Virus record (IMG/VR): IMGVR_UViG_3300020438_000068
Location: 1-46,603 of that record
Direction: 5' to 3' (one strand)
Length of the DNA: 46,603 bases
From: a virus
Shown here: one piece after another, positions 23,524-44,116 of the stretch
Position numbering within the stretch: the first letter of the stretch is position 1
Layout: every line of letters begins with the position of its first letter
Translations under genes and position numbers: made by a program
Notes under the pieces: generated by a model
Seen by the model: only the letters and a program-made list of their open reading frames with translations
Told to the model about the DNA's origin: nothing
Databases searched by the model: none

Positions 23524-23544
23524 CACGTGTTCTAATTTTATGCA
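23524..23544 (+). promoter_or_regulatory. 21-bp late-region element, copy 1
   Basis: CACGTGTTC followed by TAATTTTATGCA. It matches 44096-44116 at 19 of 21 positions. Both copies lie in the short gap between a leftward structural operon and a rightward structural operon. CACGTG is a perfect palindrome. It sits 14 bases before the terminase small subunit ATG and could bind a regulator or act as a -35-type promoter. Confidence 0.6.
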
Positions 23545-23557
23545 CAATAAGAGAACC

Positions 23558-24322
23558 ATGAGCAACAAAAACGCAACCCCCCAGAACCCGCCTCAAGGCC
23601 CTAAATTAGAGGCCTGGGCTATGCTTTCAGACGGCCAGAGCATCGCTATGACCGCGAAAACATTGAACATAAACCGGGGGACCGTCCACAGGTGGAAGAA
23701 AAGCAAAGCCTTTCATGCCTGGCACGCTGACAGGTACCTCACAAAAGATAAGCCAAAGGCCAAGGCTGCAGCTAAAAAGGCGAGGAAAGCCAAGCAGCAA
23801 GAGGCCCAGGGGGGCACCGTTCAAAAAGAGGTGGACGTGCAGCCCAACCTCCAGCGAGTGCAACCCCCTGCTCACCTGGACCGTAAGAAGTGGGAGCGCT
23901 TCATTGAGGCCCATCAAGTGGGTGCCCAACATTATGCCAGAGACTATGCCGGGATAGATGAGGACGAAGAGCGTAAATACTTGCTTGAGTTTGCCGCGCG
24001 CTATGCCAGAGCCAACCCACGGGTCAAGGTGCTCAACCGTATGCTGGCCCAAGTCTTTGACCCCAAAACGCCGGCTAGTGTTCGCACTCAGACGGCTATG
24101 CAGTGGTGGAAGATGAGTGAATCAGAGACCGCTCTCAATCCCACTGGACCGCTTGTGCACATCGATGCAACTGGTGGCAGTGATGCTGGTCCACCTCCTC
24201 ATATGGTGGCCTTCTTTGCAGGCATGCAGGAGGTCATGGATGAGGCTGCAGATCTTAAACTCATGGATGAAAGCCAGGGTGATGCGATTAGACAGAAGCT
24301 CAGAGAGAGGGAGCAGGCATGA
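23558..24322 (+). CDS. terS: Terminase small subunit
   Basis: A 254-residue protein directly upstream of the large subunit. Residues 22-55 form a helix-turn-helix (GQSIAMTAKTLNINRGTVHR) as in DNA-recognising small terminases. A Lys/Ala-rich linker (about 60-90) follows, then a helical oligomerisation region. The ATG at 23558 is chosen because the 21-bp promoter-like element lies just upstream; the longer frame starting at 23516 would run through it. It binds the packaging start site on the phage DNA. The stop overlaps the next ATG (ATGA). Confidence 0.75.
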   Translation: MSNKNATPQNPPQGPKLEAWAMLSDGQSIAMTAKTLNINRGTVHRWKKSKAFHAWHADRYLTKDKPKAKAAAKKARKAKQQEAQGGTVQKEVDVQPNLQRVQPPAHLDRKKWERFIEAHQVGAQHYARDYAGIDEDEERKYLLEFAARYARANPRVKVLNRMLAQVFDPKTPASVRTQTAMQWWKMSESETALNPTGPLVHIDATGGSDAGPPPHMVAFFAGMQEVMDEAADLKLMDESQGDAIRQKLREREQA

Positions 24323-25830
24323 ACTCTGAGAGCCACCTCTTTGAGTATGATGAATGGCGCCCCAACCTCATGCAGGCCAAGGTCTGTGCACTATGGGACA
24401 GCTGCAGGCATCCAATCATAGGCCTCATGGCTGGCTGGGGGGCTGGCAAGACCACACTGACCGCCATGATCGCTGAGATCTCCCACCTCAGGAATCCTGG
24501 AATCGACGGTTTCATTGTGACTGATTCAATGAGCCGAGGGGCACGCACTGTGGCCACCCAGTATGAGAGGCTACTAAGCCCACTGGGCTGGGTATACAAG
24601 CACGCCTACAAAGGCCAGCCTGCACCACACTGGTTGAGCCCTCCGCTAAGGGGTAAGCGTACCAAGGTTTGGATCCTGTCCTGGAAGCGCCCAGCTGGAG
24701 CCGCTAAGAGTGCCAATTCTCTTGAAGGGCCTGATTGTGGGTGGGGTGTGGCTGATGAGTGCAACACCTTAGCCGCTGCTGGTGAGGAGGTGGCCATTGC
24801 GATGCTTGGCCGCGTGCGCTCTGCCAAAAAAATGCCCAGGATCCTCCTTATCGGTAAACCCCAGTACAATAGCTGGTGGCTGCGTTTTTCCGAGTCCAGA
24901 CCAGGCGGCAAAGCCATCAAGGCGCCCAGCTCAGTGAACCGGGCCAACCTGCCTGCCTTCGATGAGTGGATGAAGACACTGAGCCGGCGTGAGGTCCTGG
25001 AAAGCCTCCTATGCCAGCCTCAGCCGCCCGAGGGGGCCGTGTACAATGACTGGCTGCCCGAGGTGTACCCCTATGGGAACATTGCCCCTCAGGGCTGGAC
25101 CCCCGACCCATCACAAGTCACTCATCTGGCAGTCGATTTTGGTATGAGGAGCCCTTCAGGGCTCGTGATAACACAGGCCCCTGAGCTTGGCCCCGGCGTC
25201 TCAGTCATTTGGAAGGAGGCAGCACCATCGCAAGCCTCTGTTTTTGACTTAGCCACAATACTCAAAAAAGACCTGAGGCAGATTAATGCCCCACCAGTGT
25301 GGCCTAACAATCGAAATGACGCCCCGCCTGGAGCCATACCCATCACATCAATTGTGGGGGATAGGGCAGGCCGCAACCGGCGTGATGATGGGGCCTTGAG
25401 CTCTAGCATTGACGATTTGAGCCAGGCTCCTGCAGTAGGTGGGCTAGGCCTTAGGTGCAGGTACACAGATGATCCCAAGAGGGTCAACGTGCTTTCTGGA
25501 ATCCGGATATTGTGGCGTCAGATTTGTGACAACTCAGGGACTAGGCGCCTCCTGTGCTCTCATGACCTGTGGCACTATGGTGGAGAGCTCAACGATCGCA
25601 GCTTTGCCGCATGTATCACGGGCTACAGGTGGCAGCCTGGCAGCGGTAAAGAGGTACCGCTCAAGGATGGGATGACAGATCACACCATGGACGCCTTGAG
25701 GTATTGGGCGATCAATACCAAGTGGCCACAAGACCAGCAGCTCAGAAACGCCTTCAACGCCTTTAGGGGTGGGGGTGAATCAATCAGCACAGTGAGCACA
25801 TCGCCAGGGCCTACAGCATTTGACAGGTAG
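24319..25830 (+). CDS. terL: Terminase large subunit
   Basis: A 503-residue packaging motor. Walker A is GWGAGKTT (39-46) and Walker B ends in VADE (144-147). The C-terminal nuclease has LAVDFG (Asp273), IVGDRAG (Asp348) and TDHTMDALRYW (Asp454, Asp458), the usual RNase H-like acidic residues. It translocates DNA into the prohead and cuts the concatemer. The gene is coupled to the small subunit and is the end of a two-gene rightward operon pointing away from the head genes. Confidence 0.9.
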   Translation: MNSESHLFEYDEWRPNLMQAKVCALWDSCRHPIIGLMAGWGAGKTTLTAMIAEISHLRNPGIDGFIVTDSMSRGARTVATQYERLLSPLGWVYKHAYKGQPAPHWLSPPLRGKRTKVWILSWKRPAGAAKSANSLEGPDCGWGVADECNTLAAAGEEVAIAMLGRVRSAKKMPRILLIGKPQYNSWWLRFSESRPGGKAIKAPSSVNRANLPAFDEWMKTLSRREVLESLLCQPQPPEGAVYNDWLPEVYPYGNIAPQGWTPDPSQVTHLAVDFGMRSPSGLVITQAPELGPGVSVIWKEAAPSQASVFDLATILKKDLRQINAPPVWPNNRNDAPPGAIPITSIVGDRAGRNRRDDGALSSSIDDLSQAPAVGGLGLRCRYTDDPKRVNVLSGIRILWRQICDNSGTRRLLCSHDLWHYGGELNDRSFAACITGYRWQPGSGKEVPLKDGMTDHTMDALRYWAINTKWPQDQQLRNAFNAFRGGGESISTVSTSPGPTAFDR

Positions 25831-26180
25831 CTAAAAGCCCAGGGACACCCACTGGTGGGGAGGGGTCCACAGTGGGAGCCCTGAGCAGCACCGAACGGAG
25901 AGAACCGGTGCACTATAAGTATACATTCCTGAACATAAAAAGAACACACCGAAACAAAAAGGGCAGCCCACCCCGGCAAAGGGGTGAGCTATTCGATCAC
26001 ACCTTTTTATATCTGATGGGGCCTTTCATTTTGTTGTGTTGATTGGCGGCCCGAAGGCCAAAAAAAGCGAAAGCCCAACTCAGACCACCGTTCCCTGCAA
26101 AGAACAGTCTGAATCAGGCTTCACAGACTGCCGCGATGAAACGGACAGTACATGCTGAGAGCCTAGCCTCTACCCTGTCA
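25831..26180. other. 350-bp intergenic region after terL
   Basis: No gene is seen. It lies between the end of terL (+) and the end of the replication operon (-). It holds a terminator-like hairpin (25967-25991) and, on the - strand near 25920-25950, TGTTCTTTTTATGTTC followed by TGTATACTTATA, which resembles the candidate portal promoter. GGCCCGAAGGCC with an adjacent A run lies at 26048. A packaging site could also be located here, but I cannot identify one. Confidence 0.4.
25967..25991 (-). terminator. Candidate terminator of the replication operon
   Basis: AGCCCACCCC and GGGGTGAGCT pair with one mismatch around a GGCAAA loop. On the - strand the hairpin is followed after four bases by TTTTTGTTT, so it would end leftward transcription. 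In the + direction no T run follows directly. Confidence 0.5.
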
Positions 26181-26369
26181 TCATTCAAGCGCTTTTGCCT
26201 GCCAAACCTTGATCGCCCTCAGCCTGTCAACCACATCAGCCACCCGCCTTGAGCGCTTGGCTAGAGTCTTGAGGTATTGCTCACCGATGGATAGACCCAG
26301 CTCATCAGCCAGAGCCTGTACCATGGTGAGCCTCTCCTCAGGCCGTTCAGGCAGAAGCTCACCCAGCAT
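26181..26369 (-). CDS. Small helical protein at the end of the replication operon
   Basis: A 62-residue, all-helical basic/acidic protein. The ATG is preceded by GAGGAAGAG and overlaps the exonuclease stop by 11 bp, so it is translationally coupled. No domain is recognised. Being last in the recombination operon, it may assist the exonuclease. Confidence 0.55.
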   Translation of the reverse strand: MLGELLPERPEERLTMVQALADELGLSIGEQYLKTLAKRSRRVADVVDRLRAIKVWQAKALE

Positions 26370-27420
26370 CTCTCTTCCTCACCGTAAACTTCTCATAACC
26401 AGAGCCCTGCTTCACATATTGCTCATGAAGCTCAGGATAAGCCTCCTTAAAGCCGCCCTCATCAAACTTGGCTCTCCCCTTAACCCTGCTTAAAGATACG
26501 CTCACACGGTGATTCTGGGCCTTTTTGGCGCCCCTTAGGGCTTGCCTTAGGCGGTTGTCTGTTAGTTTCTTTCTTTCTGTGAGCTCTTTGATCTGATCTG
26601 CAAGCTCTAGCCGCTCAACTGCCAGGGCTTCAATCTCTTCATCTGCCTCAATCTCTTTGTCTGTCCAGCCGTAGTGTTTACGCAAAGCAAGAACACAGCT
26701 GTCTGAGGCATCTGCTGCTGGTGGTGTATCGCCAATGATGTGACGCTCATACCAGTCAATTGCATAGGGTATCACCTGATCCATAAACGCCTGATCCCGT
26801 TCAAACTGATGGAGGTGATAGGTGGCACAGCCGTTCTCAATGGCAAAGATGGCATCATCTGGGGTCTGAATTAGGCCCAGGGCCTCAGAGGGTGCGTTCA
26901 GGCATCCCAGCCAGCCCACATCAATGGGGCCTTTCCCCGCTGCCATGCTCTCAAGGTGGACTGCCCACAGGTATGATTGAAGCTGGAGCCTGTAGGCTGG
27001 TGGGCCAGCCTCGCCCCAGGTGCCAAAAGTGCCCATGGTTTTGGCCTCGAATACGCCTATGAGATTGTCTTCCATGTCATAGACCCTGCGGTCAATTGAG
27101 TGATGGAAGTATTGGCTGTAAGGCTTAACCCATGCCTGGGTTTCTGGGAACTGCTCACGCATTCTCACGCCTAGCTTCTGCTCTCCAAGCTCACACACAA
27201 TGGGCTCAAGGCGCCTGCCCTCCATCATGGCTCTATTGGTTTTGATCTCAGGCTCTATGCCCTTGATACGAAGCCACAAATCATGAGGCCCCCTGTATTT
27301 TGACATGCCCAAAAGGGCCGCCCATTGTGTTCCAGAGATTGCCCCCAGGCGCTCACCGGGTATACCCCGGCCACCAAGGAGCAGGGGCTCATGCTGCTCA
27401 TTTTTCTCAATGCATCTCAT
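26359..27420 (-). CDS. YqaJ-type viral exonuclease
   Basis: A 353-residue protein. It has the YqaJ/lambda-exonuclease-like motifs: SGTQWAALLGMSKYRGPHDL near the start, RRLEPIV with the conserved Glu, and the nuclease core GVFEAKTMG followed by PPAYRLQLQSYLWA. It should degrade one strand of double-stranded ends and hand the overhang to an annealing protein such as Erf. The ATG at 27420 is set by TGGAGGGA seven bases upstream, so the nine extra upstream codons are not used. The C-terminus is a coiled coil (LADQIKELTERKKLTDN) and a basic tail. Confidence 0.8.
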   Translation of the reverse strand: MRCIEKNEQHEPLLLGGRGIPGERLGAISGTQWAALLGMSKYRGPHDLWLRIKGIEPEIKTNRAMMEGRRLEPIVCELGEQKLGVRMREQFPETQAWVKPYSQYFHHSIDRRVYDMEDNLIGVFEAKTMGTFGTWGEAGPPAYRLQLQSYLWAVHLESMAAGKGPIDVGWLGCLNAPSEALGLIQTPDDAIFAIENGCATYHLHQFERDQAFMDQVIPYAIDWYERHIIGDTPPAADASDSCVLALRKHYGWTDKEIEADEEIEALAVERLELADQIKELTERKKLTDNRLRQALRGAKKAQNHRVSVSLSRVKGRAKFDEGGFKEAYPELHEQYVKQGSGYEKFTVRKRDAG

Positions 27421-28190: not shown

Positions 28191-29083
28191 CTGTGATCAT
28201 CCCCCACCAGGCTAAAGATGCGCTCATTGCACGCACCCTTGAGCCGGCTGGCCGCCCGCTCACCAAAGACTTGCCCCATGCCCATGGGGCCTGAACCCGG
28301 TGTGCAGTTGGTTGTGATCAGCAGGGTGACGCTTAGCGGTTGATCTTCCAGTAGTGTGCAAGTCTGTTCCCACACCCACTCAGGCCGCTTTGGCTGAACG
28401 CTGCCAAGGTCATCAATCACCACTAGGCCCCTTGAGGGCAGAGAGCTCCACACCCCATCAGCAGGACCATCACCGGCCATCGAGGCCCTCATCCTCTCAA
28501 GGTGTTTGGCCCATCCCACCCATCTGACAGGGTGGCCAGCAAAGAGCGCATCAACGGAGAGCTGGTGAGCTAGTGCAGACTTCCCCCGCCCTGGCTTGCC
28601 CACCAGGCAGGTTGAGCCAACATCACTGTCACCGCTCACCACCGCTTGTGCCCATGAGCCAAGGTAATCCTTGACCGGCTGACCCCCAGCCACCTCAACC
28701 CGCGCCCAATCAAACGGGGCACCGGCCTGGAATTTGTACTGAAGGCCAGCAGAATTGAATCTATGCACCAGGCTTGAGAGCCCACCACAGTCAATGCAGT
28801 GATCACTTGAATCCTGAGCCCTAGAGGTCCAGCAGGTATCACACCCCCGCCTCCATTTCTCAGCCCGCTTGGCCTTGAGGGTGTGCCCACTGGCTAAGAA
28901 TCTCAGATCTTTGGCGCTCCAAGCCTCTGGTGCTTTTGGTGGCCCGTTGCCCGTTGCCCTGAGCTCTTGATCTCTAGCCCACTCCTCTGCCCTGCGCCTT
29001 TTGGCCTCCCCTTTGGACGCCTCAAGCGCTTCAATGGCTGCAGCTAATGAGCCCTTCATGCTTTGCATCTGCACCCCTATCAT
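28178..29083 (-). CDS. DnaC-like AAA+ helicase loader with zinc finger
   Basis: A 301-residue protein. A CxxC-x11-CxxC zinc finger lies at residues 81-99. The AAA+ core follows: Walker A GKPGRGKS (162-169), Walker B LVVIDDLGS (220-228), sensor-1 LLITTN (254-259) and the box VII region GERAASRLKG (Arg280). This is the DnaC/IstB-type family that loads the replicative DnaB helicase. Its position next to the initiator gene containing the origin fits that job. The start is coupled to the initiator stop by an ATGA overlap; ATG at residue 6 is an alternative. Confidence 0.85.
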   Translation of the reverse strand: MIGVQMQSMKGSLAAAIEALEASKGEAKRRRAEEWARDQELRATGNGPPKAPEAWSAKDLRFLASGHTLKAKRAEKWRRGCDTCWTSRAQDSSDHCIDCGGLSSLVHRFNSAGLQYKFQAGAPFDWARVEVAGGQPVKDYLGSWAQAVVSGDSDVGSTCLVGKPGRGKSALAHQLSVDALFAGHPVRWVGWAKHLERMRASMAGDGPADGVWSSLPSRGLVVIDDLGSVQPKRPEWVWEQTCTLLEDQPLSVTLLITTNCTPGSGPMGMGQVFGERAASRLKGACNERIFSLVGDDHRCSL

Positions 29084-29976
29084 CGGTTTCCCCCCGCCTT
29101 GGCCAGCTTCCCACCAAGTCTCTGAATTGCTTTGAGTTGGGCTTTCACGTGTTCTTGGTCTTCTGGTGATTCATGGGCTTGCTCAATCGGTGATCTCGCT
29201 TTGAGCGGTTGATAAGTGCCAGCCCTGTCAATCAGCCACTTGGGTGAAGGCCTCACCCCTGGATTCTGCTGGATGTAGGTCTTGATACTCTCAAGCCCGT
29301 GGGCTACAGCCTCAGCTGAGTGCAGTCTCAGAGCCTTGGAGATGTCACCCTCAGCCTTGCTGATGATTTGCTCTGAGTAACCCATGAGGGCATGCCAGGT
29401 GGATGCCATCGATTGAAAGGCCAAAGGGTCAAGGCCCTCACGCGCATGTGTGCCCACACCCATGTGTGCATGCCCGCGCTTTGTTGTTTGTTTGTTATTA
29501 TTATTTATTATATGCGTGCACTCTGAGTGTGCTTTTGGTGCACACTGAGTGTGCTTTTCACTTTTCTCAAATGCACTCTGAGTGTGCTTTTCATTTTCAC
29601 CAGCACCATCATCAAAAGCACTGTCAGTGTGCATTGTTGCACTCTCAGAGTGCGTTTTGCCTACATTACCCACACCCGCAAAAGCACTGTCAGAGTGCAC
29701 TTTGCTCACATCTGCACACATACGGATTGAGCCATAAGATCCAAAGATCAGGCCATCCAACTTCAGTGCCTTGATAGTCTTGGTGGCCTGGTTTCTGTGG
29801 ACACCCATGAGGGTGGCCAGCTTCACCGCTGTGAGCGCTGCAGTGTGGTTGTCTTCTGCCATGGCTCTCATGCTGATTATCAGCAAGGCATGACGCTTGG
29901 TGGCAGTAGAGACCCCGTAAGATGCCTCTACGCTTTCAACGTTCTGCCAGTACCAGCGGAGGGCATCAGCGCTCAT
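29080..29976 (-). CDS. Replication initiator with origin inside the gene
   Basis: A 298-residue protein. Residues 1-90 contain a winged-helix/HTH region (ALTAVKLATLMGVHRNQATK) as in lambda O or DnaD-like initiators. The middle (about 95-165) is low-complexity, with repeats of the type KHTQSAF and HSESA, and is encoded by the iteron DNA at 29517-29699. The C-terminus (about 180-298) has a helical part around IISKAEGDISKALRLHSAEAV and a Pro/Lys-rich tail that may contact the helicase loader. A good ribosome site (AAGGCT) precedes the ATG. It is the first gene of the replication operon. Confidence 0.75.
   Translation of the reverse strand: MSADALRWYWQNVESVEASYGVSTATKRHALLIISMRAMAEDNHTAALTAVKLATLMGVHRNQATKTIKALKLDGLIFGSYGSIRMCADVSKVHSDSAFAGVGNVGKTHSESATMHTDSAFDDGAGENEKHTQSAFEKSEKHTQCAPKAHSECTHIINNNNKQTTKRGHAHMGVGTHAREGLDPLAFQSMASTWHALMGYSEQIISKAEGDISKALRLHSAEAVAHGLESIKTYIQQNPGVRPSPKWLIDRAGTYQPLKARSPIEQAHESPEDQEHVKAQLKAIQRLGGKLAKAGGNR
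29481..29699. other. Candidate replication origin: six iterons and an AT-rich stretch
   Basis: Six copies of a near-palindromic iteron of the type TGCACTCTGAGTGTGCTTTT occur at 29517-29536, 29539-29558, 29572-29591, 29614-29633 (inverted), 29638-29658 and 29680-29699 (inverted). Beside them at 29481-29513 lies an AT-rich run (TTGTTTGTTATTATTATTTA) that could be the unwinding element. Iterons inside the initiator gene next to AT-rich DNA are the layout of lambda ori in gene O. Confidence 0.8.
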
Positions 29977-30180: not shown

Positions 30181-30214
30181 TCTAGGCTAGTGTATTCTGG
30201 ATGATCACGGCAAG

Positions 30215-30245
30215 ATCAAAATGTGCGCTGAGTATACATTTTGAT
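30215..30245 (-). promoter_or_regulatory. Inverted repeat immediately after the repressor gene
   Basis: Perfect 10-base arms ATCAAAATGT and ACATTTTGAT around an 11-base centre. It begins right after the repressor stop. The stem is AT-rich and lacks a GC clamp, so it is either a weak terminator or an operator. Confidence 0.5.
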
Positions 30246-30246
30246 A

Positions 30247-30609
30247 TTACGGTTCCTCGGTAAGGGCAAGGCCACTGATCCTCACAAGCACATTATTGGC
30301 CTGCTGTAGCGTGGCAATTGCCCGCTGATTTGTGCGGGCAACACTTTGCAATGACAAGGGATCATCACCTTTGAGGGTGCCCGCTGTTGAGGGTAGCAGC
30401 TCTGAGGGGTCAGCACCTAAGGCGGCGCAGAACTCAGCGAACACCTCAACCCTCATGGCTGAATCTCCGTTCTCAATCTTTGACCAGGTGGGCCTGTTGC
30501 AGCTCACGTGTTCAACCATCTGGACCTGTGTCAGCCCTGCTGTCTTCCTCGTTGCCCTTATGTTCCTCCCCAGCTCTCTGCGAAACTCTAGCGTCTGCTC
30601 ATACTTCAT
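30247..30609 (-). CDS. Cro/CI-type (XRE) repressor
   Basis: A 120-residue protein. Residues 10-72 form a classic XRE helix-turn-helix (LGRNIRATRKTAGLTQVQMV, then CNRPTWSKIENGD). The short C-terminus lacks a LexA/CI peptidase motif, so RecA-stimulated self-cleavage is not expected. The start is ATG 30609 behind TGGAGGGA, the strong ribosome site used by several genes here; the 21 extra upstream codons are leader. It faces the SSB operon across the switch region and is the likely lysogeny regulator. Confidence 0.8.
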   Translation of the reverse strand: MKYEQTLEFRRELGRNIRATRKTAGLTQVQMVEHVSCNRPTWSKIENGDSAMRVEVFAEFCAALGADPSELLPSTAGTLKGDDPLSLQSVARTNQRAIATLQQANNVLVRISGLALTEEP

Positions 30610-30807
30610 TTTTCCCTCCATTGCCTCGGGGCACCCTGGTGCCCTCTTTTCTCCATCCTCCATTGTAAACACTTTTTTGGGTCAAATGTCTGTCCCTTTT
30701 CTGTCTGCCCCCGTTTTTCCGTGATCTAAATTTGAACAAAATGCTTGATCAAAGTTCCAAAGGTGTGCATGATTCATACACACACACACAAATGGAGGGA
30801 TCCAAAA
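30610..30807. promoter_or_regulatory. Lysogeny switch: divergent promoters sharing TTGATCAA
   Basis: The palindrome TTGATCAA (30745-30752) supplies a -35 in both directions. Rightward: TTGATC, 17 bases, CATGAT (30768-30773), leading to SSB. Leftward: TTGATC, 17 bases, TTAGAT (30729-30724), leading to the repressor. The region also has TTTGAAC and GTTCCAAA flanking it as a loose dyad, the perfect hairpin GGGCACC-ct-GGTGCCC (30628-30643) in the repressor leader, and an AC run before the SSB ribosome site. Confidence 0.6.
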
Positions 30808-31314
30808 ATGAGCGATCTAAATGCATACAATTTCACTGGGCGCCTGGGGGCGGACCCTGAGATCAGGACCACCCAGTCAGGCAAAAGGGTGGCCACACTA
30901 TCAGTCGCGATCAAAGATCGAGATAAAACAGTCTGGACAAAAGTTACTTGCTGGTCACCTTGGTTGGTCGAATTCTCTGAGCAATATCTCACAACGGGGT
31001 CAAGCGTATGGGGAGTGGGTAGGATCACAACTGACAAGTACACTGACAAGAACGGGCAGCAGCGTACAAGCTGGGGAGTCACAGCCGCAAGCATGGGCTT
31101 CAATGGCCCCAAGCCCTCTCAGTCTGAAGATAGTTTTCAAGGCAACACGCCACAAGAGTACAGCAGGCCACACCAGCAACCTCAAGACAATGGGGGCTGG
31201 CAGCAGCAACCACAGCAGCAGCAACCACAGCAGCAGGGCTGGGGGTCAGCCGGTCAAGAGACGTGGGGCAATGGCAATGGCAATGGCAATGGCGGGGGCT
31301 GGAACAATGCGTGA
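30808..31314 (+). CDS. ssb: Single-stranded DNA-binding protein
   Basis: A 168-residue protein. Residues 1-110 are an OB fold of the bacterial SSB family (NAYNFTGRLGADPEIRTTQS, SVAIKDR, KVTCWSPWLVEF, VWGVGRITTDKYTDKNGQ). The C-terminal 55 residues are Gln/Asn/Gly/Pro rich and end GGGWNNA. The usual acidic tip (DDIPF-like), which recruits partner proteins, is absent. It protects single strands during phage replication and recombination. ATG 30808 follows TGGAGGGAT. It is the first gene of the rightward operon. Confidence 0.9.
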   Translation: MSDLNAYNFTGRLGADPEIRTTQSGKRVATLSVAIKDRDKTVWTKVTCWSPWLVEFSEQYLTTGSSVWGVGRITTDKYTDKNGQQRTSWGVTAASMGFNGPKPSQSEDSFQGNTPQEYSRPHQQPQDNGGWQQQPQQQQPQQQGWGSAGQETWGNGNGNGNGGGWNNA

Positions 31315-31987
31315 ATTGCAACAATATCACGGTGCATCCCTGAGGCAGTTTCAACGCCACGAGGCCTGGCTTGATGGGCTACAAAAGAGGTACCACGGAG
31401 AGAAAAGAGACGCAGTGACCCGCCTGTGTAGTATCCGCGCGCTAAGGTCAACACCACTGTGTGATTACATATCTAGTCCAGGCTTGTTGACGGAGCTTGC
31501 TAGCGGGTTTCCTCATGCCACCACTGTGGACTTGCGGTATTTGATCGGCGCGCTCAATCGGGTGTTCTGGTTCGCTGGCCTTAGGGCAAAGGCTATGGCC
31601 GGCGATGGTGGTATCAGGATAATCAATGGTCGGGTGCCAACGCTGAGAACACCACCTGCATGGGTGAGGGATAAGGTGATCGCCATGGCTGCAGATGGCT
31701 GCAGGGCCACTGAGATCAAGGCTAAGCTGTGGATCTCAGATAGCTATGTTGACGAGTGCTTGGGGCGTGGTGACGTTGAAGTTGACGTTGAGCCCCTGCA
31801 ATCACCCGCCACAGTGTCACCGCCTACTGATGAGCCTGAGTGGGTGGAGCTTGTAAGCTCACCACAGCAGTTGAGTCTTGTGCCGTCTGCCCGTTCAGCC
31901 TGGGATCTTTCGAGCATTCTCAGCATGATTAATGAGTTGACTGCCAGGGCCAGCCTTTTGGTTGAGGAGGGCACCCATGAGCGGTGA
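31307..31987 (+). CDS. Unknown protein with a helix-turn-helix
   Basis: A 226-residue protein whose ATG overlaps the SSB stop by 8 bp. I choose this start because an upstream reading of the same frame runs through the SSB gene. Residues about 120-150 (KVIAMAADGCRATEIKAKLW) look like a helix-turn-helix. The N-terminal 110 residues are basic and helical, and the C-terminal 70 are acidic with Pro/Thr. It may regulate early genes; no family is certain. Confidence 0.65.
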   Translation: MRELQQYHGASLRQFQRHEAWLDGLQKRYHGEKRDAVTRLCSIRALRSTPLCDYISSPGLLTELASGFPHATTVDLRYLIGALNRVFWFAGLRAKAMAGDGGIRIINGRVPTLRTPPAWVRDKVIAMAADGCRATEIKAKLWISDSYVDECLGRGDVEVDVEPLQSPATVSPPTDEPEWVELVSSPQQLSLVPSARSAWDLSSILSMINELTARASLLVEEGTHER

Positions 31988-32731: not shown

Positions 32732-33087
32732 CAGTGTTCTCAAAAGATCGTGATGTCTGTGAGGCTCTGGGCATTGGGTATTACACCCTGAGGCGCTTAA
32801 GGATGACCGCTGAGGCCAATGGCGTGCCATCGCCTTGCGTTGGTCATGGACGCCTGAGAAGGTGGAGGGGTGGACCAGACCAGTGGTTCAGGTGGTATGG
32901 GGAGGTAACCGCGTGTCAGCAAACATCCAGAAGCGTGGGCTCAAGTACACTGTCCGCTATGTCTTCAGGGGCTTTCAAGGCCGGATTACACTCTCAAGCC
33001 TTAAAGAGGCCCGCAAGATCAAAGCGGAAATTGAGGCAGCCCATGCCCGTGGCATCGACTGGAGACCCGGAGATCGAAATACCCTGA
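32728..33087 (+). CDS. Putative excisionase (HTH), overlapping the integrase gene
   Basis: A 119-residue protein. Residues 5-60 (DVCEALGIGYYTLRRLRMTA, then a wing and WRGGPDQWFRWY) look like the winged helix of MerR/AlpA-type excisionases. From about residue 62 the frame overlaps the integrase gene for 175 bp and turns into a Ser/Arg/Lys-rich tail. Excisionase genes often lie just before int and may overlap it, as in lambda. The role is inferred from this position and the helix-turn-helix. Confidence 0.6.
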   Translation: MTVFSKDRDVCEALGIGYYTLRRLRMTAEANGVPSPCVGHGRLRRWRGGPDQWFRWYGEVTACQQTSRSVGSSTLSAMSSGAFKAGLHSQALKRPARSKRKLRQPMPVASTGDPEIEIP

Positions 33088-34118
33088 GAGCCAGGCTCGC
33101 AGACATTGCCGGGGAATATTTAGACGAGGGGAAAGTTTCCAGAAAACCAGCAACCGTGCTGGGCTGGAGGCAATCCCTGTCCCTATTCCTCCGATTCTTG
33201 AGGACCAAAAAACCAAGGGGAAAGCTGACACCGGACTTGATGACACGTGCCAATCTCACCCAATTCTTTCAGTGGAATTGCGATGTGAGAGGGGTAAAGC
33301 TGGAGACAGCCAGATCGCGCACTGTTCATGTTCTGATGTTTTGGCAATGGGCGTGTGAGAGCGAGGATCATGGTGAGAGCTTCCCCCGCTTTGTTCGCCC
33401 CCCTCTACCATCAAAGCAGGACCCACAGCCGACACGTGCACCCTCATGGGCTCAGTGTGATGCCGTGATCTCTCTGGCCTCATCAAAAAACACCACCGGG
33501 GCACGGTACCACACCAAGATAATGACGATCGCGCGGTACACCGGACTGAGAGCCAGGCAGATCATGGGGCTCAAGTGGGATGATGTAGACATGAAAGAAC
33601 ACAGTCTCAAGGTCCGTGGTGAGCTTGGCAAGACGAGACAGGAGAGGCGAGGCCGCATCATCCCGGTCACTTCCCACCTCATTGCCGACCTGGCTACGTG
33701 GGGAAGGCGAGAGGGCCACCTGATTGACTACCCTGGCAGGGCAAAGAATGAGGTCAGAGAGGCCAGGGGACTACCTATCAACCTCACCATACCCAGCAGG
33801 GGTGTGGCAGGTCACTGGGAGGATACAGGTCTACCACCTGAGCTCTACAAGCAGAGGCCTATTCACTGCTTCCGTAAATCGTTTGCCTCTGAACTTGTAA
33901 TGAGAGGCGCAGACCGCTGGGCTGTAGAGCTCTTGTGTGGTCGCTCCACGGGTATGCATGATGTATATGTTGACCCCTCATTCTTGTGGGGGGCCATGAG
34001 CCAGGCTGTGGGCCTGATTGTCCCAATCGGTGAGGCCTCATGGGATGGGTCAGATCGATTTTTGGGACAACATAGGGACAACACGGGACCACAAAGCAGC
34101 AAGAAGCAGAAACCGTGA
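32913..34118 (+). CDS. int: Tyrosine-type integrase
   Basis: A 401-residue recombinase. I place the start at GTG 32913 because GGGGAGGT lies six bases upstream and the protein then begins with an arm-binding domain (KRGLKYTVRYVFRGFQGRIT). A SAM-like core-binding domain follows (65-150). Catalytic residues are TGLRARQ (Arg213), a candidate Lys240, HCFR (His318, Arg321) and VYVDP (Tyr352). Where most relatives have LGHS, this protein has CGRS, with Arg344 in place of the second His/Trp. It integrates the phage at a host site and excises it with an excisionase. A candidate attP follows the gene. Confidence 0.85.
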   Translation: MSANIQKRGLKYTVRYVFRGFQGRITLSSLKEARKIKAEIEAAHARGIDWRPGDRNTLRARLADIAGEYLDEGKVSRKPATVLGWRQSLSLFLRFLRTKKPRGKLTPDLMTRANLTQFFQWNCDVRGVKLETARSRTVHVLMFWQWACESEDHGESFPRFVRPPLPSKQDPQPTRAPSWAQCDAVISLASSKNTTGARYHTKIMTIARYTGLRARQIMGLKWDDVDMKEHSLKVRGELGKTRQERRGRIIPVTSHLIADLATWGRREGHLIDYPGRAKNEVREARGLPINLTIPSRGVAGHWEDTGLPPELYKQRPIHCFRKSFASELVMRGADRWAVELLCGRSTGMHDVYVDPSFLWGAMSQAVGLIVPIGEASWDGSDRFLGQHRDNTGPQSSKKQKP

Positions 34119-34280: not shown

Positions 34281-34281
34281 G

Positions 34282-34306: not shown

Positions 34307-34319
34307 AGAAGGGCAGCCA

Positions 34320-34706
34320 GTGACATACTTTCCAAGCAAGATGAGGCCAAGGCCAGCTGTAGACGGGGCTGACGCACATGAGGTAAGAGACTTTGATCCG
34401 CCTGATGCAAGCGTTGATTTTAAGCCCAGAGGCATGGGGGAGGTCATCACCATCAAAGAAGCCGTTGACAGAATTGCATTTCAAACGTGCCACCTATCAT
34501 CACAAGACCACGTGAGCCAGCCGGCTGAGGAACTGATCAGAAGGGCCGTGTTGCAGTCTGTCAGAATGAGGGGGACAGCCAAAGGGGCTCAGCAGTTGAG
34601 CCACTTTTATGCAACAGTGATCACGTCACTGGCTGAAAAGCTCAATGAGAGTGAGCTCCTTTGTGACACGTGGTTTAACAAGTGGAAAGATGATGTTGCC
34701 CGCTAG
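34320..34706 (+). CDS. Orphan protein beyond attP
   Basis: A 128-residue soluble protein starting at GTG behind GAAGGG. The N-terminal 45 residues are polar; the remainder is helical (AEELIRRAVLQSVRMRGTAK and SHFYATVITSLAEKLNES). It has its own promoter and lies next to the attachment site, a usual place for lysogeny-expressed cargo genes. No family is recognised. Confidence 0.6.
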   Translation: MTYFPSKMRPRPAVDGADAHEVRDFDPPDASVDFKPRGMGEVITIKEAVDRIAFQTCHLSSQDHVSQPAEELIRRAVLQSVRMRGTAKGAQQLSHFYATVITSLAEKLNESELLCDTWFNKWKDDVAR

Positions 34707-35197: not shown

Positions 35198-35751
35198 TGG
35201 GCCTAAACCTTGACGGACTGACACCGGAAGCGTGCGCTCAGGCCATCGTAAGATCACAGGCTTACATATACAGGGTGATGTGCTCACCATGCTTTGAATG
35301 TATGGGCATACATCTTGAGCCAGTGGGTGTACGCAACCTTGTTGACATTTCAGAGGAATCAGAAGCAACAAAGCCAATGTATACCAGTGATCGCCGCCCC
35401 TTTGACATTAGGCATAAAGAAGCGCTCACCATTAAAGACCCCCTTCATAAGTCTTCAGCTCTCGATCTCTTACATCAAGAGAGGCTTGCAGATGCTGAAA
35501 AAAAAGCACAGGGGCTGTGCACAGGGGCTGAGTTTCTAGCTGTTTTTGGCAAGGTCGATCTCCATCACAGGCAAAGCCTCCAAAACAACCCAGCCGGGGC
35601 CTATGATGCTCAGCTAAGTGCTGGGGGTGGGTGCCTCATTTACCGCTTGCGAGTTGCCAGGGACCTCAAGCCACCACCCGCGCAGCGCTACCAGGAGATC
35701 CGAGAGAATTTAAACCACTGGCCTACCTACTTGGATCATCCAGGGTCCTGA
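35185..35751 (+). CDS. Orphan protein with Cys cluster
   Basis: A 188-residue protein. CSPCFEC (about residues 33-39) could bind a metal, but no second pair is clear. The middle is charged and helical (SALDLLHQERLADAEKKAQG). ATG 35185 overlaps the previous gene by 13 bp; another ATG at 35197 forms a TGATG junction with that stop and is a possible alternative. The 3' end overlaps the convergent tail gene by 29 bp. Function unknown. Confidence 0.55.
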   Translation: MFPVMGLNLDGLTPEACAQAIVRSQAYIYRVMCSPCFECMGIHLEPVGVRNLVDISEESEATKPMYTSDRRPFDIRHKEALTIKDPLHKSSALDLLHQERLADAEKKAQGLCTGAEFLAVFGKVDLHHRQSLQNNPAGAYDAQLSAGGGCLIYRLRVARDLKPPPAQRYQEIRENLNHWPTYLDHPGS

Positions 35752-36976: not shown

Positions 36977-36977
36977 C

Positions 36978-39900: not shown

Positions 39901-40235
39901 TCATCAAAAGCCCCCTTAGGCCCAGCCAGCAGTGTCTCAATGCGTGAGAATGAGCGCTCAAAATCGATGGCCAGATTGACCGGGGCTTTGACTGTGCTGA
40001 TAGCCCGCTGAAGTGCAGCAAAGCTAGACTGAAGCACTTGAGCAGCAGAGCCCACAGTGATCAACCCCTGCTGGAACTTGCTGAACCCGCTGGCACTCCT
40101 CTCAACCGCTTTGTCAGTCTTTGCAGTCGAGCCCTCAAGCTGCTGCTGCATTCGGATTATTGAACGGTAGCCCTCAGTGACAAGATCAAGCCCATCTATC
40201 TTGATCTCAAGGACCTCTGTTGACTGTATGGCCAT
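36978..40235 (-). CDS. Tail tape measure protein
   Basis: A 1085-residue protein with the TP901-type tape-measure core in the N-terminal third (INLAIDFERSFSRIETLLAG-like segment, GDISTAAYQAISAGIPRSEV, and repeated ALTKRGIPASEAMTMLNAVV). A hydrophobic stretch lies around residues 440-520, then long Ala/Glu/Arg/Gln-rich coiled coils (about 520-930). Tail length scales with this protein, about 1.5 angstrom per residue, which predicts a tail near 160 nm. It lies just downstream of the frameshifted chaperone, as in lambda. Confidence 0.85.
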   Translation of the reverse strand: MAIQSTEVLEIKIDGLDLVTEGYRSIIRMQQQLEGSTAKTDKAVERSASGFSKFQQGLITVGSAAQVLQSSFAALQRAISTVKAPVNLAIDFERSFSRIETLLAGPKGAFDDLRQGLLELASTVPQTAGDISTAAYQAISAGIPRSEVVGFLEAASKTAVAAGGSLTQSVELLTAATNAFGDQGIDAQKASDIFFSTVREGVLTMESLGGVFGQGAALSGYGVSLEEMGASLAALTKRGIPASEAMTMLNAVVKLIASDSMPGAKAMQKLGIETGVTALQSKGLTGVLEQVLEKTQGNTEVINTFGRRAEAIKGVVNLLAGGMENYTKALDANRNAAGSTADAYGKMSADTQGAIDRFKALSEDILRRMGESVLPAVNDALQRLSQWVATEGPAMASRFADIAETFLEFGVFILENSGKIMAALKGMFAAVALNQFASSVSQASEQLTKFAAASAAGSMGFGAKITTALRSPGVIGPALVAASALGALIGNAIGERMAESYSHHTDRLERTFDDFEARVKEQQSELDQMLADRGQSSIEDSGKILAQARTGELVPIAERQGRRDADGRRIIDRADYVTAGEMVRGRGEAAAMDVAIARANEALEKAKTLEAQAQQITRESQLLGADSEARIRGVGPMQRPFERNRIDKELSDLAVAFDDTQKAAKAARESASQIVAATEKAIANQGKRSPAVKPTGSPRAALTDDQKKAIVEREAQRAQLAQLEAQDRVLMLKAQGKHDEAELEQMRLHHTEQIKQRHALKGELGAMLERQHAEEQALIERQAEAKRSKSAEEAERERQDRMRRAEQLAALRYDIGQRRLMQGGNDYQAQLNDLNQQHRAERELAQGQADLLLQIDQYYAEEKRRLVWQAHEATIQDIQGTGQAVGGSITSIMGSLSSMRQARLKAAKTDLQAGKISRQAYEEQSRAAFDAEKKVIIAKGVMSGFMAATEAALALSAFAIGNVPGGIAHTAASVAHAANAAQSSVMADAAYRADSSPIGGSASGGSASQGPALGAQTMGGSGTQPSDLEERRGPSIQFGDIVLSDVPALLSSDGVNHLGRQIAQSVTDEINRQQEIPGGFRMNGG

Positions 40236-40238
40236 GGT

Positions 40239-40670
40239 CTACCAGCTTTCCTCAGTGCGTGTTTTGTAGGCCCCCGCCGAATCAACTTGGCCCTTGATGG
40301 AGACGATCCCGTCTCTCATCACAGCCGTTGGCATCTCCGTCATCCAGGTGCTTGGGATACCGCTTTGGATCTCAAGCAGTGTGTCAGCAACCTCACCCAC
40401 CCACCCTGAGTGATATTGTGGTGAGCCGGAATCAATCATTGAGAGTGGACAACGGTCCACCTCCAAGAACACGATCTCACCCGTCTCATCAGGCTGACTG
40501 TGAAAGCCCCTGAAGGCCTCCGATGGGCAGGCCGCCCCAAAGATCTCATCCACCGAAATGACCGCTCCGAGCTCAATCATTTCTGCGTTGAATGGACACC
40601 AAGCCAGCCGCGCCCTTGCTCCTGGCAGGGCCGAACTGAGAGGACCACCACAGTTGCCCCTAGCCTCCAT
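40239..40670 (-). CDS. Tail assembly chaperone, -1 frame part
   Basis: A 143-residue frame whose first ATG overlaps the stop of the 40670-41605 gene (TAATG). The frame stays open upstream for another 43 codons to the slippery site at 40799-40805, with no stop and no usual start. The upstream part is Cys-rich (CGQCTGDG), so the natural product is probably the C-terminal extension of the fused chaperone (about 455 residues in all). A separate protein from the ATG is also possible. Chaperones of this kind bind the tape measure during tail assembly. Confidence 0.75.
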   Translation of the reverse strand: MEARGNCGGPLSSALPGARARLAWCPFNAEMIELGAVISVDEIFGAACPSEAFRGFHSQPDETGEIVFLEVDRCPLSMIDSGSPQYHSGWVGEVADTLLEIQSGIPSTWMTEMPTAVMRDGIVSIKGQVDSAGAYKTRTEESW

Positions 40671-41605
40671 TAGGCCCGCCTGCTTTGCTCTGACTCCATC
40701 ACCTGTGCATTGGCCGCAGGCCCAGCCGTCTGCGGGGCTCTTTGCCCGCTTTCTGGCACGCCCTTGCCAGGCATAGAGAGCGCAGAGCAGGCCCCCGGTT
40801 TTCCCAGGGTTGAAAGGTTCCTTACATGCCTAGCCACCTCAGTGACAACCGACTCAGCCTCAACACACTGATTGATGAACTCAGCAACCGGAAACCGTCC
40901 ACCCTCCATGAAAAGGGGGAAGCCTCCCACCTCCTCAACAGACAAAGAGAACAACTCACAATCACGATCAAAGCTCCAGTTTTCAAAGTCGTCTATTGCT
41001 TTTTGATCTTTGGCCGGGAGAGCTGACACATATGAGCTGTATGCCTCACCTGCATCTTCCCCCCTCCGCTGTGCACGCCTTGCCACATCTGAGGCCCTTG
41101 AAAACTGGAGCTCACCAAGGGCAGGCTTGAGCCTGTAACCTCGATCAAACTTCCTCAAGCTCTCCTTTGTCAGTGGCTTAATGTGCACACCCGTGGCCTC
41201 TGCTGGGTCCGGGTCAAGCAAGTCTGTGAGGTCTGAGGATTCACGATATTGGGCAGCCGCTGCCTGTGCCCTCACCCATGCCAGGGCTGTCCTCATATCC
41301 TCCTCAGAGAGAGCATCACGCAGCTTGCCCGCTGCCTTGATTTGCTCCTCTCCCTCAAAAATCTTGGTGATAACCTCGGCGCCTGCAACCCTTATGGCTG
41401 TTAAAGCCTTGGTGATGTCTGCGCCCGGTCCAGCAGAAGCCCGGACCGCACGCAGCATCTCACCTAAAAGGTCGTTCTCACTGGCATCTTCAAGGTCAGC
41501 ATCAACCAGCCTGCGAGCCTTAGCAATCTGGGCTTGCCAGACAGCCGAATCACAGAGCAGCACTAACCTCTCAGCCCCTCCAACACTGGTGAGTTTTTTA
41601 AGCAT
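40670..41605 (-). CDS. Tail assembly chaperone, zero-frame product
   Basis: A 311-residue helical protein between the tail tube and the tape measure. It has the place and role of lambda gpG. Residues 1-269 are shared with a longer frameshift product. After the slip site the zero-frame tail is low-complexity (SGQRAPQTAGPAANAQ), while the -1 frame continues in protein-like sequence. The segment FDRDCELFSLSVEEVGGFPL near the slip site is shared by both forms. It should coat the tape measure until tube polymerisation. No domain is recognised by motif alone. Confidence 0.75.
   Translation of the reverse strand: MLKKLTSVGGAERLVLLCDSAVWQAQIAKARRLVDADLEDASENDLLGEMLRAVRASAGPGADITKALTAIRVAGAEVITKIFEGEEQIKAAGKLRDALSEEDMRTALAWVRAQAAAAQYRESSDLTDLLDPDPAEATGVHIKPLTKESLRKFDRGYRLKPALGELQFSRASDVARRAQRRGEDAGEAYSSYVSALPAKDQKAIDDFENWSFDRDCELFSLSVEEVGGFPLFMEGGRFPVAEFINQCVEAESVVTEVARHVRNLSTLGKPGACSALSMPGKGVPESGQRAPQTAGPAANAQVMESEQSRRA
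40799..40805 (-). other. Programmed -1 ribosomal frameshift site
   Basis: On the - strand the heptamer reads G GGA AAA in the phase needed for tandem slippage (X XXY YYZ): GGA and AAA are codons 268 and 269 of the 41605 gene. After a -1 slip the frame is open through the whole 40670-40239 gene. Lambda G/GT uses the related G GGA AAG in the same gene position, between the tail tube and the tape measure. Confidence 0.8.
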
Positions 41606-41610
41606 TTATC

Positions 41611-43053
41611 TTAGGCCTTTTTTGGTAGAACCAACATGAAAGGGGCCTTGGCAAGTGCAAGGTCACCAGCTGCCACACCCGTGAGATTTGCGATCCCACT
41701 TTCTTGGATTGCCATCAGCTGAGTTGTCTGCTGGATGCGTCCCTCATCACCGGCCACTGGGTTGCTCTCCCCATCTGCACGCCCGCCGTTCAAAAGAATG
41801 AATGCCGCGCCTTGACCACCGCTGGTGCTGCTTGGCCCCATTCCTAAGATAAGGGTCCTGCGCTCTTCACCCACCAGCATGCGCTGTAGGTCTGTGTCTG
41901 CCTCAGTGGTGAGGGATACGGTGCATCGAGCATCATTAACCTCAGCCGCTGTGCTGCGTAAAATCCCAGTGGTCGAGGGAGATGAGGGGGCAATGTCAAA
42001 TTCAACGTCACAGCTCCAATCAAAATTAGCTTTCTCAGTACGCGCTAGGCTGACCCCACCAGCGGCAGCGCCCGTGTGATTGGCGGCCAAGTCGACCCGC
42101 GCCCCATAACGCATCTGGGCGAGCTTTCCAGGGGGCTCAGCCGTGGCCACAGTCTCAGCTGAGGCACCATCATTGGTGACTACAACACCAGGCTTGACGC
42201 TCATGGTGAGGCTGGCACCTAGGTTGTCTTGAGAGATGCTGAAGCCGGAACAGCGAGCCAAGCAGGCTACACGCTCAACTGATGCGTCTGTCCCGCTGCC
42301 GCCCATGGAGAATTTCACAAAACAATCAAGTGACTTTGCATTTGCCGCCCCAATGACAGGATAGAAGGCATAACAAAGCTCTATCGCATCACCCTGCATC
42401 ACCTGGCTAGTCCACCGTGGGTGAACCTTGACAGTGGTGTCAGTACCATCACTGCTCATGCTTGTGACAACGGCATATTCATGTGCAATGGCGTTGGTTT
42501 TTCGCCTTCTCACTGGAGCGCCTATTTTCAGAAACCCGGCATCAGAATCACTCACGATGAAGGTGTCACCGTCAGCGCCAACCGCGTTCTCACTGGCAGC
42601 AATTGAGGTGGGTGATGCATTGCCTGGATCATGAAGCCCCATAGAGGTGCTGAGGATTCGGCCAAAGCCGTACTTGAGAGGGTCACCACCTGCAGCCGTC
42701 CTGAAGCGATGGCTGACAGAGACATCATCCGTATAGAAGGCTCTAATGAAAGTATCGACAGGCGCGTTAAACTTCTCAGATCCAGTGGTATTGACCACCC
42801 CGATAGGACTAGGAATCTGAGCACCTGCGGTCATCCCACCATGATCCTCTTGATGGAAGGCCTCAGAGCCAGCGGTGAAGGCTTCAACGCTTGCCCGCGT
42901 GGTAGCCATGCCCGCAAATTGATTGATCGTAGCCTCAGCCCCTGCAGCTGGGTTGGCTGGGATCTGAGGTAGAAGGTTGCTGTCTGCGTCTGCAGACCCT
43001 GCAGCGCTGATGGCCACAGAAACTGAATAAATATTTGAGCTCTTGCCGCTCAT
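41611..43053 (-). CDS. Major tail tube protein
   Basis: A 480-residue beta-rich protein, Gly/Ala/Ser/Thr rich, with an AGGAG ribosome site. Its position after the tail terminator and before the chaperone is that of the tail tube subunit. At 480 residues it is longer than the roughly 200-350 residues of many tubes, so it may carry an added surface (Ig-like) domain; the region around residues 300-400 is a candidate. It should be among the most abundant virion proteins. Confidence 0.75.
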   Translation of the reverse strand: MSGKSSNIYSVSVAISAAGSADADSNLLPQIPANPAAGAEATINQFAGMATTRASVEAFTAGSEAFHQEDHGGMTAGAQIPSPIGVVNTTGSEKFNAPVDTFIRAFYTDDVSVSHRFRTAAGGDPLKYGFGRILSTSMGLHDPGNASPTSIAASENAVGADGDTFIVSDSDAGFLKIGAPVRRRKTNAIAHEYAVVTSMSSDGTDTTVKVHPRWTSQVMQGDAIELCYAFYPVIGAANAKSLDCFVKFSMGGSGTDASVERVACLARCSGFSISQDNLGASLTMSVKPGVVVTNDGASAETVATAEPPGKLAQMRYGARVDLAANHTGAAAGGVSLARTEKANFDWSCDVEFDIAPSSPSTTGILRSTAAEVNDARCTVSLTTEADTDLQRMLVGEERRTLILGMGPSSTSGGQGAAFILLNGGRADGESNPVAGDEGRIQQTTQLMAIQESGIANLTGVAAGDLALAKAPFMLVLPKKA

Positions 43054-43070
43054 GTCTTAACTCCTAAAGA

Positions 43071-43556
43071 TTAAAGGTCATAAGAGGCAGTGATTGTGAT
43101 CACGGAGATCAGCCCCTCGAAAGTTCGCCCGCTGTCATCACCAAGCTCAAAAGAGCTGATCTCGCCTGGCTCTGCTGAGAGGTGGGCGAGACCCCCAACA
43201 TTTGCCCAGCCAGATCTAAAAATTGCGTCAATGAGTGCCTGCTGGTCTTTTCTTACCTCAGCCATCAAGGCAGACCGATCAACGTTCCCCCCGCCGTCAT
43301 ACCGGACCCGCACTGGGATGATATCGGTGTACCCACTGGGAGCCTCACCACCAAGCCTCACCGGCTCGCTCTGTGTGTCCTCGGTGGCCAACTCAAATAC
43401 CCTGCTATGACCAACCAACTCCTCAAGGCTGCCTCGCCCAGAGAGTGAATCGGCATCAGAGAATGCGCCACGGGGCACCACAAACTTGGTCACCGTGGCC
43501 GCTGGTAAACTCTTGAGAGAGGCCCGCACATGCTTGATTACCTGATCAAAGTTCAC
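43071..43556 (-). CDS. Tail terminator-like protein
   Basis: A 161-residue protein beginning at GTG (GTGA overlap). The order completion protein, this gene, tail tube fits the tail terminator (lambda gpU-like), which caps the tube and joins it to the head. The N-terminus is helical (FDQVIKHVRASLKSLPA), and the rest is mixed alpha/beta ending in a strand (LISVITITASYDL), as in that family. Identification is by order and size. Confidence 0.65.
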   Translation of the reverse strand: MNFDQVIKHVRASLKSLPAATVTKFVVPRGAFSDADSLSGRGSLEELVGHSRVFELATEDTQSEPVRLGGEAPSGYTDIIPVRVRYDGGGNVDRSALMAEVRKDQQALIDAIFRSGWANVGGLAHLSAEPGEISSFELGDDSGRTFEGLISVITITASYDL

Positions 43557-44065
43557 CGCTTAGGCCTCCGAAACACCATATTGACAACCCTCTTGAAGTA
43601 TCGCCGGATCTTGGCCCGGTCCTTGGGTGAAACTCCGATCCATTCACGGGTTTCATTTATGGCCAGGCCATAGAGGCGAGGATCACCAGCTATCCCAATC
43701 GAGACCTGATCCCGTTTTCTGCTGACCTTGAGAACCCTGAAAGATCGACGCAAAGCGCCAGAGGCCGTGAGGGTCACACGTGCATATCCAAGGGCTCTAA
43801 ACTTGTACTGACGATAACCCCGCTTAAACAGCATGCTTTTGCCTGTCCGGCTGAGCTTGCCCCCCTTAGGCTTGGGCATGACGCCCTTGGTGGGGATGTA
43901 GATCGCTTTCTTGCTGTAAGGCTTAAACCCTCGATCTTTAACGTCTTTACCTTGATCAAAGGTCCTATGGGCTATGACGTTCACAGCGAACGTTCCCACA
44001 TTAAAGCTGTGATCCCGTTTCCAGGGCTTCCCAGCCTTGAGCTTTTTGAGCTTTTTGTAGCCCAC
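43553..44065 (-). CDS. Tail completion protein (HK97 gp10/Mu G-like)
   Basis: A 170-residue, very basic protein starting at GTG behind AAAGGTGG. The segments FKPYSKKAIYIPTKG, LSRTGKSMLFK and SGALRRSFRV, then REWIGVSPKDRAKIR, resemble the Mu gpG/HK97 gp10 family of head-tail or tail-completion proteins. It is the first gene of the leftward tail operon. The strong positive charge may reflect contact with DNA or the capsid. Confidence 0.7.
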   Translation of the reverse strand: MGYKKLKKLKAGKPWKRDHSFNVGTFAVNVIAHRTFDQGKDVKDRGFKPYSKKAIYIPTKGVMPKPKGGKLSRTGKSMLFKRGYRQYKFRALGYARVTLTASGALRRSFRVLKVSRKRDQVSIGIAGDPRLYGLAINETREWIGVSPKDRAKIRRYFKRVVNMVFRRPKR

Positions 44066-44095
44066 AGTACACCACCTTTATGCCTTCCATGATCT

Positions 44096-44116
44096 CACGT
44101 GTTCCAATTTTGTGCA
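44096..44116 (+). promoter_or_regulatory. 21-bp late-region element, copy 2
   Basis: CACGTGTTC followed by CAATTTTGTGCA, 19 of 21 identical to 23524-23544. It sits in the 91-base gap between the leftward tail operon and the rightward 44157 operon. TTCCAA, 17 bases and TAGAAT could form the rightward promoter that starts within it. Confidence 0.6.

Follow-up and report, generated by a model that had tools for sequence, protein, structure and literature searches.

Why should one short sequence stand in two gaps between divergently transcribed genes of the same phage, 20 kb apart? The question is raised by a 46,603-base phage record of IMG/VR, IMGVR_UViG_3300020438_000068, which was analysed over its whole length and is called the window here. 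A preliminary description of it had noted a 21-bp element, CACGTGTTCTAATTTTATGCA at 23524-23544 and CACGTGTTCCAATTTTGTGCA at 44096-44116, and the pair proved exact, the two copies being identical at 19 of 21 positions and both lying in divergent gaps. The element had been taken either for a phage-specific late promoter or for the operator of one regulator that coordinates late genes and perhaps silences them in the lysogen. Our results point to the latter. Judged from sequence, the repeated element is, with a probability of about 0.6, the operator of the XRE-type lysogeny repressor of this phage, situated both on late promoters and at the lysogeny switch.

A palindrome in three regulatory gaps

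The pair of 21-bp copies is in itself a modest observation. A pattern spanning both matched the window twice at up to three mismatches and none of 100 shuffled sequences, in a test made post hoc. The window contains 26 clusters of pairs alike at 19 of 21 positions, most of them repeats that are either local or coding (0-5 in six simulated genomes), so that one such pair alone proves little. What is unusual about this pair is that both copies fall within short divergent gaps, and placement and symmetry are the stronger facts. The element is described better as an imperfect palindrome of 19 bp, KTGWWCNAAWTTNGWWCAM (KTGWWCNAA-W-TTNGWWCAM), which begins 3 bp further right, the 21-bp copies being off-centre relative to it. 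The CACGTG that had been regarded as the core of the element lies outside this conserved unit and occurs 15 times in the window; at the corresponding place, the distant relative G003, introduced below, has CATGTG.

The palindrome has three strong copies in the window, all predicted operators. One, GTGTTCTAATTTTATGCAC (23527-23545, plus strand), lies between the small terminase-like gene terS, which encodes a helix-turn-helix (HTH) protein (23558-24322, plus), and a leftward ParB-like/DNA methyltransferase gene (22154-23440, minus). Another, GTGTTCCAATTTTGTGCAA (44099-44117, plus), separates the first gene of a leftward tail operon (43553-44065, minus) from the lysis-side operon, a first gene of unknown function (44157-45317, plus) and then an endolysin-like gene. 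The third and most symmetrical, GTGATCTAAATTTGAACAA (30721-30739, no strand assigned), is found in the lysogeny switch, between the leftward repressor gene and a rightward gene for a single-strand binding protein-like product (ssb, 30808-31314, plus). The sequence TG....AA.TT....CA, common to the three copies, is itself palindromic; written TGN4AANTTN4CA, it is present in the window at exactly three places (23528, 30722 and 44100), each in a regulatory gap, against about 0.7 occurrences expected by arithmetic from its eight fixed bases. The earlier view of the 21-bp copies as lying between structural operons needs adjustment on both sides: the leftward operon at 23524 does lead to the portal gene (20601-22097, minus), but starts with the ParB/methyltransferase gene, and at 44096 the leftward operon is indeed one of tail genes, while the rightward one contains the unknown and the endolysin-like gene.

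Weaker sites accompany the strong ones. The shorter word TGTTCnAATTT, reported in the switch, is present there at 30738 on the minus strand, and TGTTCCA, reported before the portal gene, is present at 22138 on the same strand. The latter belongs to a partial site, ATGTTCCACAATAATGCAG (22121-22139, minus), which matches TGTTCYA-N5-RTGCA exactly and has a low score with the matrix described below (regional best 6.6). A weak region at 30752-30781 (score 9.8) lies within the presumed ssb promoter and comprises AGTTCCAAAGGTGTGCA together with a dyad, GTGTGCATGATTCATACAC (30763-30781). With a matrix derived from G003, two weak candidates spaced by 21 bp in the convergent gap that follows terL (25908-25947) score 12.0 and 12.8. 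A further weak candidate (19989-20007, score 10.9-12.0) falls within a protease/scaffold-like gene, close to where G003 31412-31450 aligns.

The linker of this protease/scaffold-like gene holds a weak site in the window and a strong and weak pair in G003 (locus L011, about 14413-14451), nearby when aligned; such sites possibly mark an internal promoter for scaffold and capsid. Within that pair, as within the one at 25908-25947, the two sites are 20-21 bp from each other, a spacing of about two turns of the helix that would suit cooperative binding to one face of the DNA.

Two other words were considered as the unit and set aside. TGTTCYA-N5-RTGCA occurs exactly three times in the window (22138 minus, 23528 plus and 44100 plus; simulated mean 0.07), and has no match at up to one mismatch in G001-G003. 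The hexamer TGCACA, to which the RTGCACA half of that word led, is over-represented in corresponding regulatory gaps of the window (3 against 0.33 expected), G003 (4 against 0.11) and the relative L004 (3 against 0.07). In the terS gap of L004 it gives TGCACACGGTGTGCA, directly behind a TATAAT; it would be a second site type, perhaps a related one. Its enrichment is real, but it explains neither the switch copy nor the G003 site at 43520, both of which the symmetrical 19-mer explains.

Conservation of the sites with the repressor and integrase

Relatives of this phage were mostly missed by searches with one protein. No usable one was returned by blastn of the 23.2-23.9 kb stretch (phages), by TerL (viral_contigs, phages), by the tail protein or the portal (viral_contigs), by the portal in genome_contigs or by the exact 21-mer pattern (viral_contigs), and searches with the methyltransferase (L003) and the integrase (L005) gave only unrelated weak loci. 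The capsid protein led to L004 (49% identity), the terminase (TerL) alignment search to G003, and the portal alignment search to 19 loci, which make up about a dozen lineages by blastn identity. Wherever a locus holds terL, ParB and portal, the order is kept, with terL/terS reversed against ParB/methyltransferase followed by portal. G003 (44,740 bases) is a syntenic distant relative with a portal 51% identical to that of the window; its two ends repeat over 127 bases, from which we infer that it is complete and circular. Two further relatives, G004 (48 kb) and G007 (47.7 kb), approach full length; all three are homologous to the window along most of its late genes, the tail block included.

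In the terS gap of G003, GTGATCTAATTTTATACACA stands at the same place as GTGTTCTAATTTTATGCACA of the window, with 18 of 20 positions identical and no gap; 150 simulated gap pairs reached at most 16, and the proteins adjoining this gap are only about 51% identical. A pattern of the 21-mer type, GTGWTCNAANTTTNTRCAYA, with up to two mismatches, was found in 4 of 33 loci, all four being copies of this one G003 place. The symmetrised matrix, built solely from the three window sites, was then run over G003, with 25 simulated genomes as a control (best score 17.0). Its highest scores were obtained at 35205 in the terS gap (23.4), at 43520, where the site overlaps the stop codon of the repressor gene as well as the space ahead of the following leftward gene (19.7), at 31432 in the coding region of the protease/scaffold-like gene (19.2), and at 12725 in the tail/lysis divergent gap, where GTGTACTATAATTGAACAA lies over TATAAT (17.8). 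Given the simulated maximum, only these four stand out; the sites at 34512 in the portal gap (12.6) and at 43881 in the repressor leader (12.1) are suggestive by place alone. The summed score of five regulatory regions of G003 was reached by none of 2000 column-permuted symmetric matrices and, when the terS gap was omitted, by 3 of 2000. In this test the repressor-gap region ended at 43534, leaving most of the 43520-43538 site outside, and its value of 7.6 is thus too low. In the reverse direction, a matrix made from G003 43520 and 12725 ranked the window sites 30721, 44099 and 23527 first. Alignments of the gaps by MAFFT were of little help except at terS.

Which protein would bind these sites? 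The proposed binder is the XRE (HTH_31) repressor encoded at 30247-30609 on the minus strand, whose start, ATG at 30609, was picked by the ribosome-site-like GGAGGG. The longer frame 30247-30672 matches the Pfam family at 6e-14, with 52.5 bits against a curated cut-off of 27, and so belongs to the XRE group. The presence of this repressor, of an integrase and of sites was compared in eight records, namely the window, G003, the near-complete G004 and G007, and four fragments. An HTH_31 protein above the cut-off was found in two of the eight, the window and G003; the phage integrase occurs in the same two, and these alone have strong sites. G004 and G007 keep the late gene order, but contain no XRE protein, no integrase and no site above 15.3 and 12.9, respectively. 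The four fragments also have none of the three, and, being fragments, say little. The repressors of the window and G003 share NRPTxSKxExG in the region of the recognition helix. This motif and the co-occurrence make the XRE repressor the best candidate for the binder, if not a proven one.

These results bear directly on what the preliminary description had held to be decisive, namely whether relatives that keep the gene order also keep the 21 bases. Taken literally they do not, as the exact 21-mer is present in none of them; but the palindrome is present at equivalent places in the relative that has kept the XRE repressor and integrase, and is missing from the near-complete relatives which have the late gene order and lack the lysogeny genes. 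The proposal of a single late-gene regulator, which might act as a silencer in the lysogen, gains from this, and from the presence of one and the same 19-bp palindrome in the switch and in each of the two divergent gaps.

Several observations weigh against assigning the sites to this repressor. The test from window to G003 was not fully blind, the window sites having been picked after the terS gap of G003 had been seen, and the reverse test is partly circular, because its G003 sites came from the window matrix. One strong G003 site, 31432, lies in a coding region, the copies in the portal gap are weak in both phages, and the leader of the window repressor (30610-30720) has no strong copy. Overall, the repressors of the two phages share only 25% identity, and G003 has a second XRE gene, a possible binder there. 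Finally, since the other six records are without repressor, integrase and sites together, the co-occurrence is also a clade signal that sets the window and G003 apart from the rest.

Possible mechanism and alternative explanations

A 19-bp imperfect palindrome would suit a dimer of HTH proteins, and the XRE repressor of the phage (30247-30609) could dock at the switch and at both late divergent gaps, which would serve as the starting points for packaging/head and tail/lysis genes transcribed apart. The sites overlap or abut putative -35 and -10 regions. Before terS, a promoter-like TGGACA-N17-CACAAT (23520-23548, plus) has its spacer filled by the predicted operator; it is a consensus match only, and the scan that found it gave no more such matches than in shuffled sequences. 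In the tail/lysis gap of the window the site is just upstream of a putative -10 of the rightward lysis-side promoter, TAGAAT (44125-44130, plus), and in that of G003 it covers TATAAT; in the switch the second dyad (30763-30781) covers the putative ssb -10. Bound repressor would therefore exclude RNA polymerase, and one protein would shut the switch and the late operons directly in the lysogen. The sequences show the sites, where they lie, that they are conserved and that they accompany repressor and integrase; binding by the XRE protein, the resulting repression and the exact promoters are inferred. More tentative, and in our view of somewhat less than an even chance, is the fuller proposal that in this phage group both late divergent promoter regions, like the switch, are silenced by the repressor directly, that silence would require no dedicated late activator, and that operators, repressor and integrase are acquired or lost as a set.

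The main competing explanation is that the palindrome binds a positive late regulator, for example another HTH protein of the phage, which recruits polymerase to promoters with a good -10 and a poor -35. It owes this rank to the rightward tail/lysis promoters of four phages, in which a good -10 (TAGAAT in the window, TATAAT in G003, TAAGAT in G004, TAAAAT in G007) has by eye no evident -35, and other HTH-like candidates are encoded at 31307-31987 and 5658-6215, both below Pfam cut-offs. However, in G003 the site covers TATAAT itself, as would suit a blocker, the copy that is strongest by symmetry belongs to the lysogeny switch, and G004 and G007, near-complete but with neither repressor nor integrase, also lack the sites despite the same late gene order. 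An activator site is thus rather unlikely, at perhaps a third of the weight given to the repressor operator. Considerably less probable is that the element itself constitutes a late promoter (-35, spacer and -10) for an altered polymerase or sigma factor, the other possibility put forward originally. The boxes TGGACA-N17-CACAAT bracket the terS copy, and all three strong copies point in the plus direction; but sigma-70 boxes at fixed spacing match at 23520-23548 only and not at 44096, where the best -10 is 8 bp downstream, and the copies thus stand in different registers to their best -10 candidates. Moreover, the conserved bases would form the spacer, whose sequence is not generally the conserved part of sigma-70-like promoters, and the switch copy is almost symmetrical.

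A role in DNA packaging or partition, with TerS or the ParB-like protein as the ligand, would account for the copy which adjoins terS and the ParB-like gene, but hardly for the strong copies in the switch and, 20 kb away, at the tail/lysis gap; in nine relatives (L014-L031) it is a different word, GCAAC, that is repeated every ~10 bp at terS, and we consider such a role highly improbable. Least probable of all is a chance repeat or an inherited similarity without function. A 19/21 pair is to be expected now and then in such a genome, as the simulations indicate, but the sites are placed in three regulatory gaps and predict the equivalent gaps of G003, which already disfavours coincidence.

The GCAAC repeats deserve a description of their own. 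These direct repeats at the start of terS (in the window 23444-23868, plus, with four copies of GCAACCCCC) number 3-6 per 420 bases against 0.5-1.0 expected and occur in 10 of 12 sequences, the window and the nine relatives, several at 10-bp spacing; G003 and L004 lack them. They are possibly the packaging-initiation (TerS) site. Before the portal start, G003 (L011 about 17454-17482, minus) and L004 (5626-5651) have an inverted repeat CACACC-N10-GGTGTG with differing loop letters, which may fold into a hairpin covering the ribosome site in the RNA, or may be an operator.

The phage and its place among known systems

The window encodes portal, methyltransferase/ParB, tape measure, endolysin-like, capsid-like, RecE-like, RusA-like, helicase-loader, repressor and integrase proteins, and the last two make the phage look temperate. 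The presumed large terminase gene, terL (24319-25830, plus), is conserved in relatives and has no confident Pfam or PHROG match; the terS and ssb proteins match counterparts in relatives, and known relatives of the portal are weak, mostly actinobacteriophages. The tyrosine integrase gene is at 32835-34118 (plus). A small membrane open reading frame before the methyltransferase gene was dropped, its frame containing a stop. The last ~620 bases of the window (45982-46603) repeat the first (1-622) at about 95% rather than 100%, which gives a genome length of about 45,981 bases; with ends of this identity, the assembly has probably fused two strain variants, the genome itself being circular or terminally redundant.

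Other repeats were also noticed. Palindromic repeats TGCACTCTGAGTGTGC (29517-29699) within the putative replication-initiator gene (29080-29976) resemble an origin embedded in an initiator gene. A 99-base leader with TACCTCACCGGGTAAGGTA, in three copies (2763-2861, 3454-3552 and 5238-5336) that are 68-80% alike, precedes small rightward genes in the manner of repeated early control regions. By eye, an inverted repeat ATCAAAATGT...ACATTTTGAT (30196-30246) separates the stop codon of the repressor gene from the replication genes.

For tailed phages known here from metagenome contigs alone, the analysis offers an operator consensus and a candidate repressor that can be tested, and suggests how a temperate member might keep its late genes silent by direct action at the promoter. 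Pairs of syntenic phages, one with the system and one lacking it, provide material for work on the gain or loss of a regulon as lifestyle changes.

How does this arrangement compare with known ones? The CI/Cro switch of lambda likewise joins a small regulator of the XRE fold to near-palindromic operators in a divergent control region. Its late operon is controlled through Q antitermination and is not known to have CI operators at structural genes, unlike the arrangement proposed here. The repressor sites of phiC31 are conserved inverted repeats. Taken together, phiC31 and L5 have 18-30 repressor sites dispersed over the genome, according to one account (PMC4557955); the window resembles phiC31 in its multiple dispersed sites, and differs in having fewer strong ones and another repressor and gene layout. 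In L5 and other cluster A phages, more than 20 sites are reported in promoters and short intergenic spaces, 13 bp long and asymmetric (PMC9283540). These stoperators are oriented with transcription, bound by monomers and stop elongation, whereas the window has three strong near-symmetrical sites at divergent starts, 19 bp long and near-palindromic, and hence not of the L5 type. For the C1 repressor of P1, 22 asymmetric 17-bp operators are reported across the genome, acting on lytic genes beyond the switch (PMC8546580). The likeness is a lysogeny repressor with operators dispersed beyond the switch; the difference is that the operators of P1 are many and asymmetric, while those of the window are near-palindromic 19-bp sites, few, on the late gaps themselves, and paired with an XRE-type protein. 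Family scans of the window proteins named no C1 family, a direct comparison with C1 not being part of them.

Dispersed repressor operators are a known kind of control, and the window and G003 share several of its features. Both have a repressor and an integrase, temperateness being read from genes alone, and in the window the same type of site is found at the switch (30721) and at distant late genes (23527 and 44099). The number of strong sites, three in the window and four in G003, is below the 18-30 of the established examples, and the system would therefore work like that of P1, L5 and phiC31 without being filed in the L5 or P1 families. What is new is its occurrence in this phage group, for which we found no description. 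Literature on late-gene control by repressors offered nothing decisive, and we do not claim that the idea has never been published; here a few near-symmetrical operators would take the place of the many asymmetric ones of P1 and L5.

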